Shown here: positions 9,715-52,280 of the stretch, one piece after another | Position numbering within the stretch: position 1 is the first letter of the stretch | Layout of the letters: each line of letters opens with the position of its first letter | Assembly: GCF_030643825.1 (NCBI RefSeq) | Contig: NZ_CP101717.1 | Span: forward strand, 1,364,001-1,428,000 | DNA: 64,000 nucleotides | From: Salinispirillum sp. LH 10-3-1 | GTDB lineage: Bacteria > Pseudomonadota > Gammaproteobacteria > Pseudomonadales > Natronospirillaceae | Reading direction: 5' to 3' | Notes under the pieces: model-generated | Seen by the model: the letters and a program-made list of their open reading frames with translations, nothing else | Database searches by the model: none | What the model was told of the DNA's origin: nothing | Program-made: the position numbers and the translations under genes

Positions 9715-10512
9715 ATGTCGGTTTCTCAGTGGTACAAAAAGTGGTTGCAGTGGTGGCGTCCAGCGCCTCTCCAGCCGCATGCCCGTGAAGTGCAACTGAA
9801 CCGTTGGTATCGCACCGAGCTGGGTGAAGCGCTGTACCGCACAGAACGTGATATGGTCGCTCCCGTGCTCGCTCAAGGCTACCATCCGTTTATCGTCCAG
9901 GTAGATGGTGGGTTGTATCGCCCGCTCTTTGATGCACAGAAATGCCGCAGCAAAGCGGCGGTATTGATTTCGCGATACGAAAACAACGCGGTGTGTCCAA
10001 CGGTTCAGTCTGACCCGGAGCATTTGGCTCTGTTGCCAGAAACGGTCGATATGATGATCATGCATCACGTCATCGAGTACGCGCAAAACCCGCACCGAGT
10101 TTTGCGCGAAGCGGTGCAGGCTCTGCGACCTGGCGGACAACTGATTGTTATGGGTTTTAATCCTTACGGTTTTTGGGGCCTGGCGCGCTTGCTGCGCCGA
10201 CAAAGCCAGGTACCTTGGGTGGGGCGGTTTGTGTCTGCCCGTCGGGTGGCTGATTGGTGTACTCTGTTGGATTGTGATGAGGAGCAAACGGCCTATTACT
10301 ACCACTGGCCACCGATGACCCAAGCCTCCTGGAAGCGGCGAGTACGTTTATTAAATGCCTTTTTTCGGGTAGTTATGCCGATGACGGGCGCTGGATACAT
10401 GTTGGTGGTGCGAAAAAATCAGGTAGAGTTATTGCACGATCATAAGTGGAAGCCAGCTTTTTTTATGCAAGACAAAGTGATGACAACGCAAAGAGAGCAG
10501 GTGACAGGATAG
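9715..10512 (+). CDS. SAM-dependent methyltransferase (YafS / PA1814 type)
   Basis: 265-residue class I methyltransferase. The core is seen in [50 protein letters not shown], the motif IV to post-motif V stretch of this family. The N-terminal region carries a degenerate glycine motif, as in other members found between gloB and rnhA. Substrate unknown. Its stop codon TAG shares its last base with the GTG start of rnhA, so the two are translationally coupled. It is the first gene of a methyltransferase-rnhA-dnaQ set that is conserved in Pseudomonas-like genomes. Confidence 0.85.
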
Positions 10513-18131: not shown

Positions 18132-18150
18132 ACATTTTTTGGCCTTTACC

Positions 18151-18202
18151 GTAGGAGGCCAGCCCCCTGGCCGAAAATTCGCGCAGAGGGCTGCGCTCCT
18201 AC
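18151..18202. repeat. Inverted pair of family A REPs at the pabB 3' end
   Basis: Unit 1 (18151-18175) reads GTAGGAG then GGCCAGCCCCCTGGCCGAA. Unit 2 (18178-18202) is the inverted variant with GCGCAGAGGGCTGCGC. The TAG of unit 2's GTAG, on the minus strand, is the pabB stop codon (18199-18201). The pair fills the gap between convergent thrH and pabB. Confidence 0.88.
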
Positions 18203-19563
18203 GGCAACGCCAACCCTAACGACGCCAACAGACTTCGAATCTTGTCGTGGGTCTCTTCGAACTCAGCCGCCGTTTCGGAATCCCACACAATACCGCCTCC
18301 GGCCCAGGTCCACAGGTGGTTGTCTTGAATCGCCATGGTGCGAATCAAAATATTACTGTCCAGCAAGCCAGTTACATCCTGATAAAAAATCGAGCCGCAG
18401 TAAGGGCCGCGCTGGTGCGGTTCCAGTTCCGCAATAATTTCCATCGCCCGCCGTTTGGGCGCACCGGTGATCGAACCACCGGGAAAGGCTTTCAATAAGG
18501 CGCCTAATGGCGTTTCGCCCGGACTCAGCGTAGCCGTCACTGTGCTCACCAACTGATGCACATTGGCAAAGCTCTCTAGGTCAAACAACTTGGGAACCTT
18601 GACACTGCCCGGCACCGCACTGCGGCCCAGATCGTTGCGCAGCAAGTCCACAATCATTAGGTTCTCCGCGCGATCCTTGGTGCTTTGCAGCAGCGACTGT
18701 TTCAGCGCTTCATCTTCTTTAGGGTCTGGGCTACGTGGACGGGTCCCTTTGATGGGTTTGGTTTCCATCTGCCCGTCAGCAATACGCAGAAAGCGCTCTG
18801 GCGACAGACTCAAAAGCTGTGTGTTGCCAAGGTCAAGATAAGCCGAAAAGGGCATCGGGGTCGCATTGCGCAATCGAGCATAGGTCGCCAACGGGGCATT
18901 GGGCCAAGGAGCATCAAACTGGCGCGTCAGATTCACCTGATAGCAGTCGCCAGCGGCAATGTAGTCTTTCAGGCGCTGCATCCGTTGCTCGTATTGGTGT
19001 TGATCTAAGCTGGTGTGAACCACCGTGTCGGACGCCATGGCGACATCCCTGGGCGGCAAAGTGGGTTGCCACTGCGCAGCATCGCCGATGTAGAGCACAC
19101 GCTGTTCTTGGTGGTCAATAACGACCGCGTGGTCATAGTCGCCCACCCATGCCAAGGGCATGTCGATCACTCGGCTCAGTGTTTGGCGACGGTGGTCCTG
19201 TAAGGGAACCCCTTGTTGAAGTTGGCCCAGGTCGTAATTAAGTAGGCCAATCAAACCACCATTGAAGCCACCGTTTGGTTTGGTCGGCAACGCAACGCGA
19301 GACTGTATTGCCGATAAGGCGGCGATCACTGATCCGCGTTGGATATTCGTTAATCGATAGCTGCCGTCGGCTTGGCGCTCCCACTCTTCCAGCGCTTGCA
19401 ACGTAGTCACCACAAAATATCGCTGCGGCATCGCCGCCACCACGCTGTAACGCCCAAAGGGTGCTCCCGGCAGGCAACTGTCCAGCAACACAGGAAAGTG
19501 CTGTGAGTCTAGGGCACTTAGCCAGCAGAGCGGGTTAAGAGGGTCAATCAGGGCGTCAGACAT
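18199..19563 (-). CDS. pabB: Aminodeoxychorismate synthase component I
   Basis: 454-residue chorismate-binding enzyme that makes 4-amino-4-deoxychorismate for folate. C-terminal catalytic block with IKGTRPRSPDPKEDEALKQSL, KDRAENLMIVDLLRNDLGR, FPGGSITGAPKRRAMEII and the final GGGIVWDSETAAEFEETHDK. In the first block the lysine (PIKGTRPR) marks PabB rather than TrpE. I use ATG 19563 (MSDALIDPL); an upstream TTG in frame would add 26 residues without family support. The stop codon is supplied by a REP. Confidence 0.93.
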   Translation of the reverse strand: MSDALIDPLNPLCWLSALDSQHFPVLLDSCLPGAPFGRYSVVAAMPQRYFVVTTLQALEEWERQADGSYRLTNIQRGSVIAALSAIQSRVALPTKPNGGFNGGLIGLLNYDLGQLQQGVPLQDHRRQTLSRVIDMPLAWVGDYDHAVVIDHQEQRVLYIGDAAQWQPTLPPRDVAMASDTVVHTSLDQHQYEQRMQRLKDYIAAGDCYQVNLTRQFDAPWPNAPLATYARLRNATPMPFSAYLDLGNTQLLSLSPERFLRIADGQMETKPIKGTRPRSPDPKEDEALKQSLLQSTKDRAENLMIVDLLRNDLGRSAVPGSVKVPKLFDLESFANVHQLVSTVTATLSPGETPLGALLKAFPGGSITGAPKRRAMEIIAELEPHQRGPYCGSIFYQDVTGLLDSNILIRTMAIQDNHLWTWAGGGIVWDSETAAEFEETHDKIRSLLASLGLALP

Positions 19564-34906: not shown

Positions 34907-34983
34907 GTAGGAGCGCAGCCCTCTGCGCGAATAAATTGGCCATGATTAAACACGGAAATTCGGCCAGAGGGCTGGCCTCCTAC
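34907..34983. repeat. Inverted pair of family A REPs
   Basis: Unit 1 at 34907-34931 (GTAGGAG with GCGCAGCCCTCTGCGCGAA). Unit 2, inverted, at 34959-34983 (TTCGGCCAGAGGGCTGGCC then TCCTAC). The GTAG of unit 2 starts 4 nt after the acyl-CoA dehydrogenase stop codon on the minus strand. Confidence 0.9.
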
Positions 34984-34987
34984 GAGG

Positions 34988-36142
34988 CTAAAAGGCTCCG
35001 GCACCCTCGGCCAGCACACGCCGTGCGATGATCAAACGCATGATCTCGTTGGTGCCTTCCAAAATGCGATGCACCCGCGTATCACGCACATGGCGCTCCA
35101 TGGGGTACTCTTTAATGTAGCCGTAACCTCCGAACAGTTGTAACGCATCGTCGCAAACTTGGAATCCGACATCGGTCGCATAGCGCTTCGCCATGGCGCA
35201 ATACGCCGAGGCTTCCGGGTCTTGTTGATCCAGCTTGAACGCTGCCAAGCGCACCAGTTGGCGTGCCGCGGCAAGCTCGGTCACCATATCCGCCAGCTTG
35301 AACTGCACGGTTTGAAACTGGTCGAGTGACCGCCCAAATTGCGTGCGCTCCTGAATGTAAGCCTTGGCTTCGTTAATGGCCTGCTGCGCCGTACCAATGG
35401 AGCAGGTGGCGATGTTGATTCGCCCGCCATCCAAACCTTTCATCGCAAAAGTGAAGCCTTCGCCTTCTTCTCCCAAGCGATTCGCCACAGGTACACGTAC
35501 GTTTTCGAATGTGACCAAACGCGTCGGCTGGCTGTTCCAGCCCATTTTTTCTTCCGCCTTGCCGTACACAACGCCTTCAGCGTCGGCCGGAACCACGATG
35601 GCCGAAATGCCTTTCGGGCCTTCACCACCCGTACGCGCCATCACCACCAACACATCGGTGGAACCCGCCCCGGAAATGAACATCTTCGAGCCGTTCAGCA
35701 CATAGTCATCGCCATCACGGGTGGCCTTGGTGCGCAACGATGCCGCATCCGAACCGGCTCCAGGCTCGGTCAAGCAATAAGAGCCTAAGCGCTCACCGCT
35801 CACCATATCGGCTACCCAGTGGGCGCGCGTGGCGTCATTGCCAAAGCTGGCAATCATCCAGGTCACCATATTGTGAATGGTGAGATAAGCTGTGGTAGAG
35901 GTACAGCCCATGGACAGTTGCTCGAAGATCAAACTGGAATCCAGCCGCGACAACCCCAGTCCACCTTGGTCCTCTGGCGTGTACAGACCACAAAAACCCA
36001 TGTCAGCGGCTTTGCGAATCACATCCACTGGAAACACATGGTCACGATCCCATTCCGCCGCCATGGGTGCCAGTTCCGCCTCGGAAAACTGCCGAGCACT
36101 CTCAACAAAGGCTCTCTGGTCGTCATTCAGATTAAAATCCAC
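34988..36142 (-). CDS. Acyl-CoA dehydrogenase, probably isobutyryl-CoA dehydrogenase
   Basis: 384-residue FAD enzyme. CLTEPGAGSDAASLRTKA and FISGAGSTDVLVVMARTG are the FAD-site strands, and the C-terminal QLFGGYGYIKEYPMERHVRDTRVHRILEGTNEIMR carries the catalytic Glu region. In the mms operon it should oxidise isobutyryl-CoA (valine) and perhaps 2-methylbutyryl-CoA. I start at GTG 36142 (MDFNLNDDQ) because GAGAGGA lies 7 nt upstream; the longer frame runs into the intercistronic palindrome region. Palindrome P1 (36221-36314) lies just upstream. Confidence 0.9.
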   Translation of the reverse strand: MDFNLNDDQRAFVESARQFSEAELAPMAAEWDRDHVFPVDVIRKAADMGFCGLYTPEDQGGLGLSRLDSSLIFEQLSMGCTSTTAYLTIHNMVTWMIASFGNDATRAHWVADMVSGERLGSYCLTEPGAGSDAASLRTKATRDGDDYVLNGSKMFISGAGSTDVLVVMARTGGEGPKGISAIVVPADAEGVVYGKAEEKMGWNSQPTRLVTFENVRVPVANRLGEEGEGFTFAMKGLDGGRINIATCSIGTAQQAINEAKAYIQERTQFGRSLDQFQTVQFKLADMVTELAAARQLVRLAAFKLDQQDPEASAYCAMAKRYATDVGFQVCDDALQLFGGYGYIKEYPMERHVRDTRVHRILEGTNEIMRLIIARRVLAEGAGAF

Positions 36143-36220
36143 GTTCTTATCCTCTCTGGTATACATCGCACTCTTAGCTGTGGGCCTGACCATCTAACGC
36201 TGGCTTATCAGTTGCCGGCA

Positions 36221-36314
36221 GAGACAGGGGGTGGCAATGTCAGAGGGCAGGACGCCCTCGTAGCGCGTTAAGACCATGGATGGTCTTTCGCGCGGACATG
36301 CCACCCCCTGTCTC
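36221..36314. repeat. Long nested palindrome P1 in the mmsA-acyl-CoA dehydrogenase gap
   Basis: Outer arms GAGACAGGGGGTGGCA (36221-36236) and TGCCACCCCCTGTCTC (36299-36314) pair perfectly. Inside are AGAGGGCAGGA (36242-36252), a GCGCG / CGCGC clamp and the hairpin AAGACC-ATGGAT-GGTCTT (36270-36287). The core is shared with palindromes at 41556 and 41741. Confidence 0.85.
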
Positions 36315-36364
36315 GGTTGGCAACGGTCTGTCCTGTGGTCGGTTAACGCTAGCAGCAGCTTTTG

Positions 36365-37861
36365 TTAGCCCAGTTTTATCGTCATATTGGCCTCGCCAGC
36401 CGGAATATCACTGTCGAACCAGCGTGCCGTAATGGTCTTGGTTTCGGTGTAGAAGCGAATCGCCTGCTTGCCATAGGCATGTTGATCGCCATAGAACGAG
36501 CCTTTCCATCCGGTGAAAGAAAAGAAGGGCAGAGGTACAGGAATAGGCACGTTGATACCGACCTGGCCTACCTCGATTTCATGCTGGTATTTACGCGCCG
36601 CAGCACCGCTGGCCGTGAATATAGAGGTGCCGTTGCCGTAAGGGTTGGCATTCACTAACGCAATGGCGTCGTCCAGCGTGTCTGCCGACATGCATGAAAG
36701 AACCGGCCCGAAAATCTCTTCTTTATAGATCGTCATGTCAGCGGTCACACCGCTGAACAAAGTTGGCCCCACCCAGTTGCCGTTAGGGTAGCCTTCGACA
36801 CTGTGGCCGCTGCCATCTAATAAGCATTCCGCGCCTTCTTTTTTGCCTTGGTCGATCAGGCTTTCAACACGCGCTTTGGCTTGCGGGCTGATCAATGGGC
36901 CAAAGCCAGAATCGGGTTGGCTCCAAATGCCGGGTTTAACCTTCGCCAGCGCATCGCGCAACTCGGGTATCCACGCTTGCGCCTCACCAACAAACACCGC
37001 CACGGAAATCGCCATGCAACGTTGTCCGGCTGCGCCGACAGAGGCGCCGACCAAACTGTTAATGACCTGCTGCTTGTTGGCGTCAGGCATTACCACCATG
37101 TGGTTCTTGGCGCCCGCGAACGCCTGCACGCGCTTCAGATGCTGGGTGCCGGTGCGGTAAACGTGTTGTCCTACGGCGACCGAGCCGACGAAGGAAATGG
37201 CTTTAATGTCCGGGTGCGTCAGTAGCGTATCCACTTGGTCTTTCGCCCCGTGAACAACCTGTAACACTCCGGCTGGCGCACCGGCTTCGTTGAACAGCTC
37301 GGCCAGACGGTTAGGGGTCAGAGGATCTTGTTCAGACGGCTTAAGTACGAAGGTGTTACCGCAGGCAATCGCCATGGGGAACATCCAAAGCGGGATCATG
37401 GCTGGAAAGTTAAACGGGGTGATACCCGCACAAACACCTAAAGGCTGAATGTACGAATAACCGTCGATCGAGCGCGCCACGTTTTCCATGGTTTCGCCCA
37501 TCATGCCCGAAGCCACATTGGCCGCTTGTTCTACTACTTCAATGCCACGCCAGATATCGCCCTTAGCGTCTTCAAACGTTTTGCCGGTTTCCTGTGCCAG
37601 CGTTTCTGCCAGCTCATCATGATGTTCTTTTAACAATGCCTGATAGCGCAGCATAACGCGCGCGCGTTCACTGACCGGCACTTCCTTCCACGTTTTAAAA
37701 GCTGTTTTTGCACTGGCGATGGCCCGCTCCATCTCGTCGGGGGTCGCACAAGGGACAGTACACAACACGTCTTGAGTGGCCGGATTGGTAACTGGAATTT
37801 GTTGTGTCGACTGGCTGGATACAAATTCGCCGTCGATAAATAGCGGGATCTCACGAGCCAT
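36365..37861 (-). CDS. mmsA: Methylmalonate-semialdehyde dehydrogenase (CoA-acylating)
   Basis: 498-residue aldehyde dehydrogenase that converts methylmalonate semialdehyde to propionyl-CoA. Catalytic Cys in [17 protein letters not shown] (near 285), [21 protein letters not shown] and [21 protein letters not shown] are MmsA-specific blocks. A strong SD, GAGGAGG, lies before ATG. It heads the leftward operon; 157 bp separate it from the divergent liuR, with a palindromic operator in between. Confidence 0.95.
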
Positions 37862-37956
37862 GGTAGCTCCTCCTCACAGTATGGGTTCCGGTGGCGCACA
37901 CAGCCGCCTGCCGATGTTGTTTTTGTTGTTGTATTGAAAAATAGCATCACATTAAC

Positions 37957-37974
37957 GTTTACGCAAACGTAAAC
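37957..37974. promoter_or_regulatory. Putative LiuR operator between mmsA and liuR
   Basis: Perfect inverted repeat GTTTACG-CAAA-CGTAAAC in the 157-bp divergent control region. LiuR is a MerR-type regulator, and its family binds such dyads between promoter elements. One site could control both the valine operon and liuRABCDE. Confidence 0.7.
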
Positions 37975-38018
37975 TTGGGCTATCGTTATTACATGGATAG
38001 CAGGACAGGCAAGTAAAG

Positions 38019-38441
38019 ATGACAAAAGCGACTTGGAGCATTAACGAGTTGTCGCGGGAGTTTGATATTACACCGCGCAGTATTCGCTTTTACGAAGACG
38101 AAGGGCTGTTGTTTCCCACCCGACGTGGGCAAACACGTATTTACAGCAAGCAAGATCGGGTGCGTTTGAAACTGATTTTGCGCGGTAAACGCCTAGGCTT
38201 TGCCTTGGCCGAAATACGCGAGTTGTTTGTACTGTACGACGCCACCAGTCAGAACAACGACAAACAGTTGCAAGCCATGATCGCCAAAGTGCATGAGAAG
38301 CAGGCGGTGCTGGAGCAACAACTACAGGATTTAAAGATTGTGCAGGAAGAACTGCGCAACGCCGAAATTCGCTGCTGGAATTCGATGACCGAAAGCGGGC
38401 GGCGCAAATTGGAAGAAGAATTGGCGAATGAAACCCCGTAG
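38019..38441 (+). CDS. liuR: MerR-family regulator of branched-chain catabolism LiuR
   Basis: 140 residues: MerR winged helix (WSINELSREFDITPRSIRFYEDEGLLFPTRRGQTRIYS, residues 6-43) and a C-terminal coiled coil (about 85-135) for dimerisation. One Cys only (RCWNSM), so not a metal sensor. It heads the liu operon and diverges from mmsA. In related bacteria LiuR represses leucine catabolism. The stop codon TAG (38439-38441) is part of the REP that follows. Confidence 0.92.
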   Translation: MTKATWSINELSREFDITPRSIRFYEDEGLLFPTRRGQTRIYSKQDRVRLKLILRGKRLGFALAEIRELFVLYDATSQNNDKQLQAMIAKVHEKQAVLEQQLQDLKIVQEELRNAEIRCWNSMTESGRRKLEEELANETP

Positions 38442-38500
38442 GGCAGGTATTTATACCTGCCAGCTCGCGGGTGTGGCCATACAGAAAGGCACCCGCTCTA
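38438..38500. repeat. Family B REP overlapping the liuR stop codon, plus decayed partner
   Basis: Unit GTAGGGCAGGTATTTATACC-TGCC at 38438-38461, whose TAG ends liuR. A decayed inverted partner (GCGGGTG ... CACCCGC, then TCTAC) extends to about 38500, leaving 37 nt before liuA. Confidence 0.85.
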
Positions 38501-38537
38501 CGTCCAAACGAATAAAGATAAAAATGAGGATTGCCCA

Positions 38538-39707
38538 ATGATCACCCCATACAAAGGTCTGAACTTTGAACTCGGCGAAATGGTCGACATGGTGCGCGAC
38601 CAAGTGAATGCTTTCGCCCAGCAAGAAATCGCCCCGCGCGCGACCGACATCGACCACGTCAATGAATTTCCGAACGACCTGTGGCGCAAATTTGGCGACC
38701 TCGGCGTGCTCGGCATCACCGTCTCTGAAGAAGAAGGCGGCGCGGGCATGGGTTATTTAGCGCACGTCGTTGTGATGGAAGAAATCAGCCGTGCTTCTGC
38801 CTCTGTTGCACTGTCGTATGGCGCGCACTCCAACCTGTGCGTGAACCAAATCAAGCGTAATGGCACGCCTGAGCAACGCGCGAAATATTTGCCCAAACTG
38901 ATTTCCGGTGAGCATATAGGCGCTCTCGCCATGAGCGAACCCGGTGCAGGTTCCGACGTCGTCAGCATGAAGCTGCGTGCCGACAAAAAAGGCGACCACT
39001 ATGTGCTGAATGGCAACAAAATGTGGATCACCAACGGCCCCGACGCCCATACCTATGTGGTGTACGCGAAAACCGACCCGAACGGCGGCTCGAAAGGCAT
39101 TACCGCCTTCATCGTCGAACGTGATTACCCTGGTTTCGAACGCGCACAGAAACTCGACAAGCTAGGCATGCGCGGCTCCAACACCTGCGAACTGGTGTTC
39201 CGCGATTGCAAAGTACCCGCCGAAAACATTCTTGGCCAAGAAGGCCGTGGTGCTCAGGTACTTATGAGCGGCCTCGACTACGAGCGCGTAGTGTTGGCCG
39301 GTGGCCCATTGGGCATTATGCAAGCCTGCATGGACATCGTGGTGCCATACGTTCACGACCGTCAGCAGTTCGGTCAGTCCATCGGTGAGTTCCAGTTGGT
39401 GCAGGGCAAGTTGGCCGATATGTACACCACCTTGAATGCTTGTCGGGCCTATGTCTACGCCGTAGCCAAGGCGTGCGACCGGGGTGAAACCACACGCAAA
39501 GACGCCGCTGGCGTCATTCTTTATGCCGCTGAAAAAGCCACGCAAATGGCGCTGGACGCCATCCAGCTACTCGGCGGCAATGGCTACATCAACGAATACC
39601 CGACAGGGCGATTGCTTCGGGATGCCAAGCTCTATGAAATCGGTGCAGGCACCTCAGAAATTCGCCGGATGTTGATTGGGCGAGAACTGTTCACCGAGTC
39701 TAAATAG
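38538..39707 (+). CDS. liuA: Isovaleryl-CoA dehydrogenase
   Basis: 389-residue acyl-CoA dehydrogenase of leucine degradation (isovaleryl-CoA to 3-methylcrotonyl-CoA). [36 protein letters not shown], and [11 protein letters not shown] are family marks. [35 protein letters not shown] carries the Glu typical of the isovaleryl enzyme, and the tail [41 protein letters not shown] is complete. GAGG lies upstream of ATG. First structural gene after liuR. Confidence 0.95.
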
Positions 39708-39714
39708 CGAGTCT

Positions 39715-39865
39715 GTGGATGATGCGGCCGCACTGAGCGGGTTCTGTGGGTATCACGTGGGACGCCGTAAATACGTCCCTGTAGGCTCGACAAGCGCATC
39801 CATGCGCTTGAACGCCCACTTAGACACCGCACAGAACCCGCTCAGTGCGACCGCCGATCATCCAC
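39715..39865. repeat. 151-bp palindrome P4 between liuA and liuB
   Basis: Outermost arms GTGGATGAT (39715-39723) and ATCATCCAC (39857-39865). Next, a perfect 19-bp pair GCACTGAGCGGGTTCTGTG (39730-39748) and CACAGAACCCGCTCAGTGC (39830-39848). Inside are two hairpins, GGGACG...CGTCCC and CAAGCGCATCC-ATGCGCTTG. It begins 8 nt after the liuA stop. Confidence 0.88.
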
Positions 39866-39924
39866 GGTAGCCCAACGGCAGGTATTACATTCTTCCGTTC
39901 GTTGAAATTGAAGAGAAAAGACAA

Positions 39925-41532
39925 ATGACCCAACTGACGACCCAAATCAATACTCGAACGCCGGAGTTTTTGGCGAACGACGAAGCCATGCAAGCGCTGG
40001 TGGATGATCTGCACGCCAAGCTTGAAGAATTGAAACTCGGTGGCGGCATAAAGTATCAAGAGCGCCACGTATCGCGTGGAAAACTGCTGGCGCGTGACCG
40101 TATTCGTCATCTGTTGGATGATGGCTCGCCGTTTCTGGAAATTGGCCAGATGGCCGCTTATGGCATGTATGATGACAACATCGCCTGCGCGGGCGTGGTG
40201 GCCGGTATTGGTCGGGTCAGCGGCGTCGAATGTATGATCGTCGCCAATGACGCCACGGTAAAAGGCGGTACGTATTTCCCCGTGACGGTGAAAAAGCACC
40301 TACGCGCGCAAGCCATTGCCGCGCAAAACCATCTGCCGTGTATTTATCTGGTGGATTCCGGTGGCGCTAACTTGCCGCAACAAGATGAAGTCTTCCCCGA
40401 CCGCGAACATTTCGGGCGTATCTTCTTCAATCAAGCCAATATGTCCGCCGAAGGCATACCGCAAATCGCCGTGGTCATGGGTTTGTGTACGGCGGGCGGT
40501 GCCTATGTGCCTGCCATGGCTGATGAATCCATCATCGTTAAAGACCAAGGGACTATCTTCTTGGCCGGGCCGCCGTTGGTAAAAGCCGCCACCGGTGAGG
40601 TGGTTTCCGCGGAAGAACTCGGCGGTGCCGACGTGCACACCAAGGTATCTGGTGTGGCTGACCATTACGCCTTGAACGATGAGCACGCCTTGCACCTCGC
40701 CCGGCGCAGCGTGGCACGCTTAAATAGACCTAAACGCGTGGACATCGACAAGCAACCCAGCGTACCGCCGAAGTACGACCCGAAAGAGCTGTACGGCATT
40801 GTCGGCGCTGACTTGCGTAAGCCGTACGACGTACGCGAAGTCATCGCGCGGGTGGTTGATGGATCTGATTTCGACGAATTTAAGCAGTTATACGGCCCAA
40901 CTTTGGTTTGCGGTTTTGCACGTTTATACGGTTACCCTGTCGGTATCGTCGCCAATAATGGGGTTTTGTTCAGTGAGTCGGCGCAGAAAGGCGCACACTT
41001 CATCGAGCTGTGTGCACAGCGCAAAATCCCGCTGATTTTCCTGCAAAACATCACCGGCTTTATGGTCGGTAAGAAATACGAGTCAGAAGGCATCGCCAAG
41101 CACGGTGCCAAGCTGGTGACGGCGGTATCCTGCGCGAAAGTACCGAAGCTGTCGATGATCATCGGCGGTAGTTACGGTGCAGGTAATTACGGTTTGTGTG
41201 GTCGGGCGTACGATCCGAACTTTTTGTGGATGTGGCCAAATGCGCGCATTTCTGTCATGGGGGGCGAGCAGGCTGCCGGGGTGATGGCGCAGGTGAAGCG
41301 TGATGGTATGGCGGCGCGGGGTGAGACATGGACGGCAGAGGAAGAGGCTGCCTTCAAGCAGCCAATTCAGGAGCAATACGAGACGCAAGGTCATCCTTAT
41401 TACGCGAGTGCGCGGTTATGGGACGATGGCATCATCGATCCAGCCCAAACCCGAGAGGTTCTAGGCCTCGGGCTTTCAGCAGCGCTGAACAAGCCCATCG
41501 AGGAGACTAAATTCGGCGTCTTCCGGATGTAG
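39925..41532 (+). CDS. liuB: Methylcrotonyl-CoA carboxylase, carboxyltransferase subunit
   Basis: 535 residues of the biotin-dependent carboxyltransferase fold, joining with LiuD to carboxylate 3-methylcrotonyl-CoA. [46 protein letters not shown] and the C-terminal [41 protein letters not shown] are MCC beta features. Full length. Preceded and followed by long palindromes in the operon gaps. Confidence 0.96.
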
Positions 41533-41555
41533 TTGGTCATTATCGGAGCGAGCTT

Positions 41556-41644
41556 GGCTGGGGGTATTCCTTTCCCGCGCCTTGGGCGTCCTGCCCAAAA
41601 GGCGCTAATCGGGCTCCTGCCCTCTGGAAAGGAATCCCCCAGCC
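41556..41644. repeat. Nested palindrome P2 in the liuB-liuC gap
   Basis: Outer arms GGCTGGGGG-T-ATTCCTTTCC (from 41556) and GGAAAGGAATCCCCCAGCC (to 41644). On the minus strand the core AGAGGGCAGGAGCCCGATTA followed by GCGCCTT (41599-41625) leads into the hairpin TTGGGC-AGGAC-GCCCAA. Confidence 0.85.
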
Positions 41645-41740
41645 AGCCCACTCCTCAGGCCAACCCTGTAGCACCGCCACAATCCACGAGTTCTCTATTG
41701 TGGCTGGAGAAAGCTCAGACTTATCGGGAAGGGGTCGAGG

Positions 41741-41831
41741 GGGTTAGGGAGGACTTTTCCAGAGGGCAGGAGCCCGATTAGCGCGTTACGTACAGGACGT
41801 ACGTTCGCGCGGGAAAAGACCTCCCTAACCC
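41741..41831. repeat. Nested palindrome P3 in the liuB-liuC gap
   Basis: Outer arms GGGTTAGGGAGG (41741-41752) and CCTCCCTAACCC (41820-41831). On the plus strand the core AGAGGGCAGGAGCCCGATTA then GCGCGTT (41761-41787) leads into the hairpin ACGTAC-AGGAC-GTACGT and the clamp CGCGCGGG. P2 and P3 share the core in opposite orientation and fill most of this 347-bp gap. Confidence 0.85.
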
Positions 41832-41879
41832 GCGACGAACCCGTTCTCATGCTGAATGGCGCGATAGAGGAATTAGGAA

Positions 41880-42641
41880 ATGAGTGACTTGCTGAAAAGT
41901 GTAGATGAAAGAGGGGTGCTGACCCTCACGATGAATCGGTTGGAAAAGAGCAATGCCTTTGATGATGGCTTAATTGGGTTGCTGAATGCCGCGCTGTTGG
42001 ACGCTGCGGGTGATTCGAATGTCAAAGTTGTGTGCCTGCGAGGTGCTGGCAAACACTTCAGTGCTGGCGCTGACTTAGGTTGGATGCAACGCATGGCCAA
42101 GTACAGCGAAGCGGAAAATCAAGCGGATGCCTGGCAGCTCGCGCAGTTGATGAACAACCTGTATCGGCTGCCGAAACCGACGGTTGCCGTGGTGCAGGGG
42201 GCGGCTTATGGCGGTGCGGTGGGGCTGGCTGCGTGTTGCGACATGGTGTTTGCCAGCGAGCGTGCCAGCTTTTGTCTGAGCGAAGTGAAGGTCGGGCTGG
42301 TCCCCGCCACGATTTCGCCCTTTGTGATTCGAGCGATTGGAGAGCGCCAAGCGCGGCGGTATTTCTTGAGCGCGGAAGTGATTCGCGCCGACAAAGCGCT
42401 GGCCATTGGCTTGGCACACGAAGTGATTGCAGCGGATGCCTTAGACCAAGCGGTAAACGAATGGTGTGACGCGGTGCTGGGCAACAGCGCGGTAGCAGTG
42501 GCGGCAGCCAAGCAACTGATTGACGATGTAGCCGGTGCAGATATCAACGAAGACCTGCTGCGCATGACAAGTGAACGCATTGCTGCCATTCGCGTATCGC
42601 CAGACGGGCAAGCCCGCCTAAAACAGTTTCTTGAGCGCTAG
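41880..42641 (+). CDS. liuC: Methylglutaconyl-CoA hydratase
   Basis: 253-residue crotonase that hydrates 3-methylglutaconyl-CoA to HMG-CoA. FSAGADLGWMQRMAKYSEAENQADAWQLA is characteristic of the methylglutaconyl enzyme; AAYGGAVGLAACCDMVFASERASFCLSEVKVGLVPATISPFVIRAIG follows. Position between liuB and liuD supports the assignment. The stop codon (CTAG, 42639-42641) is the first part of a family A REP. Confidence 0.93.
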   Translation: MSDLLKSVDERGVLTLTMNRLEKSNAFDDGLIGLLNAALLDAAGDSNVKVVCLRGAGKHFSAGADLGWMQRMAKYSEAENQADAWQLAQLMNNLYRLPKPTVAVVQGAAYGGAVGLAACCDMVFASERASFCLSEVKVGLVPATISPFVIRAIGERQARRYFLSAEVIRADKALAIGLAHEVIAADALDQAVNEWCDAVLGNSAVAVAAAKQLIDDVAGADINEDLLRMTSERIAAIRVSPDGQARLKQFLER

Positions 42642-42740
42642 GAGGCCAGCCCTCTGGCCGAACCAATGAATAGCACGTAGGAGGCCAGCCCTCTGGCCGA
42701 AAAATTCGTCGGGGGTTCGGCCAGAGGGCTGGCCTCCTAC
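42638..42740. repeat. Three family A REPs between liuC and liuD
   Basis: Direct units at 42638-42662 (CTAGGAG, contains the liuC stop) and 42677-42701 (GTAGGAG), and an inverted unit at 42716-42740 (ending CTCCTAC). Units share the palindrome GGCCAGCCCTCTGGCC. They occupy nearly the whole gap between the two genes. Confidence 0.92.
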
Positions 42741-45739: not shown

Positions 45740-46170
45740 AGCCAAACGCAATCCCAATGGGGGTAATCCCCTATATGCTCCACAATATTCGCTCGCAAAG
45801 GGTTTGCGACGATATAACGCGCGGTCGCCAGTAAATCCTCCTCCGCGCGAATAGCGTGGTCGTAGAAACCAGACTGCCAGACTGAGAAGCCTATTCGTTT
45901 AGATGTCACTGACTTAACGCGTTTAACCATCTGCGATAAATCACCGGCTTGCAGGGTAAACAACCAGTGAAGGTGGTCTGGCATAACCACAAAAGCCAAA
46001 GTCTGGGTGGTTGCTATGGCATCTTCTTGTTTGAGCGATTGAATGAGCGTTCGGGCAGCCGAGAGATCAGAGAAGAAAGGTCGACGATGTTGGGTTGCGG
46101 TGGTGATGTGGTAAACATGACCGGGTGCAGAAAACCGCCCTTTGCGTAGATTCCGTCCGTGGTAGTGCAT
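45736..46170 (-). CDS. REP-associated tyrosine transposase (RAYT, TnpA-REP)
   Basis: 144-residue single-domain HUH/Y1 nuclease of the IS200/IS605-related Y1_Tnp fold. HUH motif in VMPDHLHWLF, catalytic Tyr in ATARYIVANPLRANIV, and the N-terminal RKGRFSAPGHVYHITTATQHRRPFF typical of RAYTs. Such proteins cleave and join single-stranded REP DNA next to the GTAG foot and are thought to have spread REPs. It is flanked on both sides by family A REPs that begin GTAG, the arrangement called a REPtron. The stop codon is the TAG of the flanking REP. Confidence 0.93.
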   Translation of the reverse strand: MHYHGRNLRKGRFSAPGHVYHITTATQHRRPFFSDLSAARTLIQSLKQEDAIATTQTLAFVVMPDHLHWLFTLQAGDLSQMVKRVKSVTSKRIGFSVWQSGFYDHAIRAEEDLLATARYIVANPLRANIVEHIGDYPHWDCVWL

Positions 46171-46270
46171 GATAGTTCGTCGCTGTCGAAGGGATGTTAT
46201 TGTGAAGAATAACGTGGGTCATGGGTACTCACCCTAGGGGTAGGAATGCAGTGTTAACGCGAATTGTCCC

Positions 46271-46404
46271 GTAGGAGCGCAGCCCTCTGCGCGAAAGTTT
46301 GGCCTTGGGGCTGGGTTGGGGTTCGGCCAGGGGGCTGGCCTCCTACGGAAAAAACGCCAGGCCTTGGTCAATGTGCATGTTCGGCCAGAGGGCTGGCCTC
46401 CTAC
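46271..46404. repeat. Three family A REPs upstream of the RAYT gene
   Basis: Direct unit 46271-46295 (GTAGGAG + GCGCAGCCCTCTGCGCGAA), inverted units 46322-46346 and 46380-46404 (both ending CTCCTAC). The first two mirror the pair on the other side of the RAYT gene. Confidence 0.92.
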
Positions 46405-52135: not shown

Positions 52136-52177
52136 TAGGTTTTCGTTTGAATTTCAACGTTTGATGGTTGTGTTGGC

Positions 52178-52280
52178 GTAGGAGGCCAGCCCTCTGGCCG
52201 AATCTTCGCGCAGAGGGCTGCGCTCCTACGTCCTTATCTTCGCGCATGCGGTGCCCTGCGGGTGTAAAAACCCGCCCTAC
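52178..52280. repeat. REP cluster between the kinase and bkdC genes
   Basis: Family A direct unit (52178-52202), family A inverted unit (52205-52229), and an inverted family B unit (52258-52280). The last starts 4 nt after the bkdC stop codon on the minus strand. Confidence 0.9.

Follow-up and report, generated by a model that had tools for sequence, protein, structure and literature searches.

Dispersed nested palindromes related to TwoAYGGAY RNA in Salinispirillum sp. LH 10-3-1 and their possible role as CsrA/RsmA-type sites

Four nested palindromes, here called P1 to P4, lie in gaps of the mms and liu genes within a 64,000-nucleotide stretch of the Salinispirillum sp. LH 10-3-1 genome (contig NZ_CP101717.1, positions 1,364,001 to 1,428,000; this whole stretch is the window, and coordinates of P1 to P4 count from its first letter). 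Each has the shape of a Y, formed by a long outer stem and two hairpins with GGA in their loops, and we tentatively read them as dispersed structured RNAs of the TwoAYGGAY kind (Rfam RF01731), each with two CsrA/RsmA-type hairpins, which would make them scattered predicted CsrA sites. The fold is kept by compensated changes, the strand that carries GGA shows a polarity of wobble pairs, and the copies are dispersed, often as divergent twins, and akin to RF01731.

Fold of P1 to P4 and related copies in the genome

When folded as RNA and compared with shuffled controls, P1, P2 and P3 gave z-scores of -12.5, -9.0 and -7.9, with none of 200 shuffles equally stable, and P4 gave -13.2. An alignment of P1 to P3 has 19 shared pairs, at which 56 of 56 cells are standard compared with 85% in shuffles, and six of the 19 pairs carry two-sided changes. 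The core AGAGGGCAGGA is common to all three and is followed by GCCCGATTAGCGC in P2 (minus strand) and P3, while P1 has the variant CGCCCTCGTAGCGC; GGA is present in all six loops. The original prediction, made from the letters of the window, had described this shared core with inner stems AAGACC, TTGGGC and ACGTAC and loops ATGGAT, AGGAC and AGGAC, all of which were borne out, and its view that structure rather than sequence is kept finds support in compensated changes both within the genome and at orthologous Microbulbifer loci. The outer stems of P1 to P3 are, as it had said, mutually unrelated, but their pairing is near-perfect rather than perfect, with one bulge or mismatch each. P1 and P2 had been located correctly, with pairing that extends past the ends then given, and although P1 to P3 do lie in mms and liu gaps, the set of three was incomplete, P4 having been missed.

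P1 (36211..36324, plus strand) has an outer stem in which about 36211-36241 pairs with 36295-36324, a hairpin A at 36243-36259 with loop AGGAC, and a hairpin B at 36263-36293 with lower stem GCGCG/CGCGC, upper stem AAGACC/GGTCTT and loop ATGGAT. It stands between the mmsA-like and acyl-CoA dehydrogenase genes, and because both are on the minus strand its GGA strand is antisense to its neighbours. P2 (41546..41654, minus strand) and P3 (41741..41831, plus strand) form a tight twin on opposite strands of a single gap, between the genes for a liuB-like carboxyltransferase and a liuC-like enoyl-CoA hydratase; P2, the left half of this divergent twin, is antisense to both genes and P3, the right half, is sense. 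The outer stem of P2 joins at least 41556-41575 to 41626-41644, and its hairpin A (41611-41622) has the loop AGGA and its hairpin B (41577-41605) the loop AGGAC. P3 carries the same two loops, AGGA on hairpin A at 41764-41775 and AGGAC on hairpin B at 41781-41810, and in its outer stem 41741-41760 pairs with 41812-41831. P4 (39724..39854, minus strand), with outer arms 39724-39748 and 39830-39854 and a conserved core at about 39757-39821 whose loops are ATGGAT and AGGGAC, occupies the gap between the isovaleryl-CoA-dehydrogenase-like and carboxyltransferase genes and is antisense to both. GGA is thus constant in these loops, and the full AYGGAY is present in part of them. At least three element loci within 5.7 kb are found in 6.6% of random placements (38 loci), so the clustering at the mms-liu genes is weak.

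The 11-base core of P1 to P3 occurs four times in the 3.47-Mb genome; three occurrences are P1 to P3, and R1, a covariance model of these three, did not pick up the fourth, at 360202. A genome search of this sort had been proposed with the original prediction. It confidently returned P1 to P3 alone (E 1e-23 to 9e-21), and its weak next match, at 1544657 (E 0.4), opened up a wider family, since it too is a nested palindrome, though built on a different core. With two mismatches allowed, a 19-letter pattern taken from this second core is found 21 times in the genome compared with 0 for the reversed pattern. Nineteen of these sites fitted the layout (L060 and L071 did not) and, with P4 as the twentieth element, make up the alignment A3, from which the covariance model R2 was built. 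The layout runs outer stem, CGT, hairpin 1, CGAGCC, hairpin 2, TTYACGGCGT, outer stem. Pairing holds in 96.8% of 377 cells, with 84 changed on both sides and only 3 standard pairs changed on one side, and GGA is in the loop of hairpin 1 in 20/20 elements and of hairpin 2 in 18/20; because hairpin 2 was in the search pattern for 19 elements, hairpin 1 alone is a free test.

R2 gives 48 matches in the genome at E<=1, 38 of them at E<1e-8; P4, itself one of the 20 sequences of the model, scores 74 bits (E 2.2e-16). Arms, measured over the best pairing segment, are under 9 bp in 10 of the 48 and 10 to 32 bp in the other 38, of which 22 have no mismatch in that segment. Over both cores the genome total is 51 element matches, 41 with arms of at least 10 bp. 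Variants at 691711, 2292692, 2490460, 3223781 and 3342883 of this genome (G000) have an extra GGA-loop hairpin after the second GGA (e.g. ACAAATTCGT-CTGGA-ACGAATTTG), often with a CACGA end, and are perhaps another subfamily.

Kinship with TwoAYGGAY and distribution in the order

No named family had been put forward for the palindromes in the original prediction, yet their kind is that of the TwoAYGGAY RNA, although P1 to P4 score under the Rfam threshold. All four have the RF01731 architecture, namely a three-way junction, a long outer stem, two GGA-loop hairpins and a two-part hairpin B. The RF01731 model scores 52.1 bits on L264, an R2-type element of another genome, which is above its 43-bit cut-off, and 43.5 bits on L063 of this genome, the only one of 20 own-genome loci tried to pass. 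R2 in turn finds some RF01731 loci, the best of its matches that are centred on an RF01731 match having E 4e-12, and R1 matches such loci down to E 1.7e-7. A third model, R3, was built from 13 loci of other genomes returned by the RF01731 search, with no window sequence. These were the loci whose fold looked clear by eye among 30 RF01731 loci, which include the best R1 matches, L320, L324, L297 and L302; L302 and L320 were included. In the whole genome R3 ranks P1 first (E 1.2e-6), and its top four matches in the window are P1 (38.1 bits, E 2.4e-8), P4 (19.0 bits, E 0.0065), P3 (13.9 bits, E 0.18) and P2 (11.8 bits, E 0.72), the E-values of all three models being rough. A profile from members alone therefore detects P1 and P4 and ranks P3 and P2 third and fourth. 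Matches to Rfam Ysr224 and to microRNA families were under the cut-offs of those families and were set aside. We treat P1 to P4, the elements with the related core and RF01731 as one kind with distant subfamilies; by Rfam score P1 to P4 are not members.

Copy numbers per genome are lower bounds, because searches across the order scored at most 13 to 16 candidates in each genome, and at most 7 for RF01731. R2 elements were found in 150 of 390 sampled genomes and 68 of 142 genera (at most 13 candidates per genome). RF01731 was matched at E<=0.01 in 73 of the 390, with 32 above the cut-off, and 41 genomes have both R2 and RF01731 matches. The stricter order-wide RF01731 search gave none in this genome, where the best 7 of 78 candidates were scored. 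R1 gave seven weak matches in six genomes besides its three own copies, and when folded some of these are nested palindromes and some apparently gene-internal.

The genus Microbulbifer allowed orthologous copies to be compared. In G160, assigned to the genus from its mutM relatives, 13 scored copies have near-identical 53-nt cores, these being the 13 candidates scored and so selected for likeness to the model, and their outer arms vary by compensated changes around a common consensus. Within 240 kb of this genome R2 gives 18 matches at E<=0.1, the weaker ones with more divergent cores, and the copies there other than the 13 score 22 to 71 bits; this density is not unbiased, because the 240 kb were picked around known matches. 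Between rpmG and mutM the whole element is present in seven Microbulbifer loci and its right half in L183, at a contig end; it is absent in L188 and L192-L197, and a remnant is seen in L191. L175, L184, L187 and L190 have identical or almost identical cores, and in L185, L186 and L189 the arms are kept and the core is altered or enlarged; hairpin 1 is swapped as a block between L185 and L189 despite near-identical arms. Orthologous arms at three Microbulbifer loci differ in 262 cells, of which 189 are two-sided and still paired, 50 are wobble and 23 broken. In this comparison the innermost 11-14 pairs are anchors chosen because they pair, pairwise cells are not independent, and the right-hand elements of L187 and L190 (shifted 3' module) and the left-hand ones of L184, L189 and L191 were left out. 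The idea of mobile palindromes that acquire new arms, one half of the original guess, thus holds in that the elements are dispersed and their presence varies among species, and fails in that the Microbulbifer arms are homologous and drift with compensation; the other half, structured RNA or DNA sites, was the better one.

Other features of these loci were seen in passing. At mutM in L185 and L189, in the right-hand elements of L187 and L190 and at 16228 in L187, the 3' part of hairpin B is repeatedly replaced by a similar block, GGGGGGGCGCCTAGC, as though the internal loop were the insertion point of a further small module, and in the mutM element of L186 (about 9800-9935) extra hairpins separate the outer arm from hairpin 1. 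G160 also has, within 7.2 kb (L179:11195-18386), five palindromes of a different type (TATGCAC...TTTTG variants), possibly an integron cassette array.

The folding strand, its possible role and competing explanations

Mismatches in the outer arms of 99 elements, read on the GGA strand, comprise 62 G.T, 18 A.C and 90 others, and isolated mismatches are likewise skewed (G.T:A.C 27:6, p 3e-4). Among 83 distinct arm pairs the G.T:A.C ratio is 20:0 in Microbulbifer, 28:6 in other genomes and 6:9 in this genome. The elements were gathered by a regular expression requiring GGA loops, 13 of 112 contexts were dropped for weak arms, and the counts include related and therefore non-independent copies. 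If one arm were simply copied onto the other, both strands would be affected alike, which argues for the GGA strand as the selected folding strand; it is probably under selection to fold, either as RNA or as single-stranded DNA. Template switching during replication, which would keep the arms complementary by such copying with no selection on structure, would account for the excess of two-sided over one-sided changes in A3 (84 vs 3 cells) and for the block swap of hairpin 1 between L185 and L189, but it predicts equal numbers of G.T and A.C, and conservation extends to the loops and junction letters; we regard it as very improbable.

Our current working hypothesis is that the GGA strand folds into the Y, with an outer stem of free sequence, a hairpin A with a GGA loop and a hairpin B whose lower and upper stems are separated by a small asymmetric internal loop, the upper one bearing the second GGA loop, and that copies retain this shape as the stem sequence drifts. 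The folded strand would most likely be RNA, produced as a transcript crosses the gap; its two GGA hairpins could hold one CsrA/RsmA dimer, and the many copies might jointly act as scattered CsrA-binding sites, either locally or by titration. RNA rather than single-stranded DNA as the folded form, binding by CsrA and an effect on expression are what we infer here. Paired GGA hairpin loops, as in CsrA/RsmA-binding RNA, are present throughout P1 to P3 and in nearly all of A3, and the pattern C-A-(N)-GGA-(N)-G, which we take to be the CsrA/RsmA site, is largely preserved in the loops, two such hairpins presumably suiting a dimer. A CsrA gene was found in 372 of the 390 genomes, in 148 of 150 R2-positive ones vs 224 of 240 others (p 0.013), a co-occurrence that is weakly compatible with a role of CsrA.

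The placement of the elements relative to genes was assessed with genes called by simple scripts, and some Microbulbifer start distances are negative, indicating miscalled starts. Leaving out 10 of the 51 matches, with arms under 9 bp, 41 well-armed elements of this genome comprise 19 that are antisense in tandem gaps, 12 sense, eight in divergent gaps and two in convergent ones, and a stop codon precedes each of the 19 antisense tandem elements by 12-53 nt. In Microbulbifer (43 of 47 matches used, 42 with genes on both sides, many of them mutual orthologues) 23 are sense and 15 antisense, with no preference for stops. Matches of this genome that lie within 600 nt of each other are divergent in 13 of 14 pairs (p 1.6e-7), with cores 94-170 nt apart, four of the 13 twins including a match with arms under 9 bp; the same holds for eight of 10 such RF01731 pairs among the 150 matches listed (p 4e-4). 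The gap between liuB and liuC is 347 nt here vs 13 nt in a Marinobacter plasmid, where that stretch has no R2 match, so the elements would enlarge gaps in this genome.

Several of these findings would be expected if the Y were folded single-stranded DNA, serving as the end by which some enzyme recognises and moves a small mobile unit (probably the divergent twin, a pair of elements that point outward), with single copies as its remnants: tens of copies dispersed in intergenic gaps, near-identical cores in the 13 G160 copies (picked for likeness to the model), presence that varies among species at rpmG-mutM, the element-free liuB-liuC gap of the Marinobacter plasmid, the excess of divergent twins, and an orientation independent of transcription; strand-specific wobble, too, is predicted by a folded DNA strand. 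For REPIN doublets the proposed mover is a Y1 transposase. However, a Y1/RAYT enzyme was rejected as mover here, since a search at E 0.05 gave no R2 match within about 1.5 kb of any of 18 Y1-transposase loci (from 13 of 18 element-rich genomes), and five of the 18 genomes have no Y1 gene. Orthologous copies, moreover, have diverged in their flanks yet retain the fold and, in four cases out of seven, also the core, which is unexpected of idle remnants. No cleanly joined empty site came to light, the two G160 pairs within 600 nt are one divergent pair with a gene between and one tandem pair, and inspection of coordinates in this genome, whose skew suggests an origin near 0 and a terminus near 1.7 Mb, gave no clear replichore bias. 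We consider mobile DNA a serious but rather unlikely explanation. In one genome (G119, L263:3640-4830) a divergent twin encloses a 294-aa ORF with a DUF4357 match (E 1e-19) and a weak GIY-YIG match under the cut-off; seen once, it is a candidate cargo or mover, and in the other loci compared the protein has no relative better than E 4.6. A literature search on GIY-YIG single-strand nucleases with palindromic repeats, and another on palindromic repeats in these genera, found nothing on point, PMC2699552 proving irrelevant.

The position of the 19 antisense tandem elements shortly past stop codons, as for intercistronic stabilizers, and the great stability of the stems would also suit general mRNA-level hairpins, in which a long stem, binding no particular ligand, would just protect 3' ends or be cleaved by RNase III between cistrons. 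Such hairpins would leave the kept GGA loops, the junction letters, the second hairpin and the strand asymmetry of wobbles unexplained, and Microbulbifer elements are not placed after stops; we think them improbable.

A number of observations nevertheless weigh against TwoAYGGAY-kind RNAs offering CsrA hairpins. RF01731 gives no match to P1 to P4 even at E<=2 (window positions 36000-42000), so the Rfam gathering score is not reached; P2 and P3 are not significant singly with R3, a fifth and unrelated R3 window match, next to P2, has 11.7 bits, and R3 returns no Microbulbifer copy at E 0.01. The subfamilies must accordingly lie far apart. This genome alone lacks the wobble polarity, which is in any case no proof of RNA because single-stranded DNA also tolerates G.T. 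Relative to flanking tandem genes, antisense and sense placements of the GGA strand are about equally frequent (19 vs 12 here, 15 vs 23 in Microbulbifer), and with orientation so mixed around half of the copies would need antisense transcription for a role as RNA. Two R2-positive genomes, G241 (99% complete, one contig) and G200 (88% complete), and G083, which is RF01731-positive under the cut-off, have no CsrA gene match. In G241, a Microbulbifer with 13 scored R2 matches, a real loss and a sequence error are among the possible causes.

A bolder extension, which we hold to be doubtful, is that TwoAYGGAY may be a self-spreading, genome-wide array of CsrA/RsmA docking sites rather than one RNA gene, often set out as divergent twins so that a transcript from either side would show one folded GGA element. 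Were this so, gain and loss of copies would retune the post-transcriptional control of nearby operons, here those of valine and leucine breakdown, and also the free CsrA pool.

Comparison with known palindromes and CsrA-binding RNAs

The REP, REPIN and BIME sequences associated with RAYT are extragenic palindromes that form inverted doublets in many copies, and the present elements resemble them in all three respects. They differ in their free stem sequence, in having no adjacent Y1 gene in the tested loci and in lacking the GTAG foot, a feature of REPs. The window does hold a REP family of the GTAG type (GTAGGAGGCCAGCCCTCTGGCCGAA, with a GCGC variant) as inverted doublets at 18146-18207, 34907-34983, 42639-42740, 46264-46353 and 52177-52230, one of them adjoined by a Y1 transposase match at 45892-46119 (minus strand); this is a REP/RAYT system separate from the nested palindromes. 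Integron attC sites likewise combine a conserved fold with variable arms that pair, but the present elements are dispersed single copies and twins, with no cassette array at these places and, by eye, no attC box consensus. With CsrB, CsrC, RsmX, RsmY and RsmZ, which sequester CsrA, they share GGA in hairpin loops; unlike those small RNAs they have two loops only, tens of copies and both orientations to genes.

TwoAYGGAY itself was listed in a 2010 catalogue whose first author is reportedly Weinberg, and its CsrA motifs are the subject of a 2014 paper said to be by Gardner and Eldai. The passages on TwoAYGGAY in the former describe it as probably RNA and probably not cis-regulatory, from human gut, gamma-proteobacteria and Clostridiales (PMC2864571), and those in the latter report two strong CsrA-motif matches, paired sites that fit a CsrA dimer and a poorly conserved outer stem, and propose CsrA sequestration, with validation yet to come (PMC4333381). 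Rfam 15 adds two covarying pairs (PMC11701678), and a preprint treats the loop energies (PMC11661157). In the parts of this literature that we consulted, TwoAYGGAY appears as a catalogued orphan, with no mention of copy number, divergent twins or dispersal. Dispersal, divergent twins, compensated arm changes at orthologous loci and the excess of G.T over A.C on the GGA strand are new. They bring a group of extragenic palindromes across the order under one roof, and the question shifts from the function of a small RNA to why tens of copies per genome keep one fold. P1 to P3 differ from TwoAYGGAY in their private core (AGAGGGCAGGA, TAGCGC) and mostly 4-5-nt loops, and resemble it in the poorly conserved long outer stem, hairpin A, the two-part hairpin B and GGA loops in both hairpins, which are AYGGAY-like but show the full AYGGAY in part of the loops.

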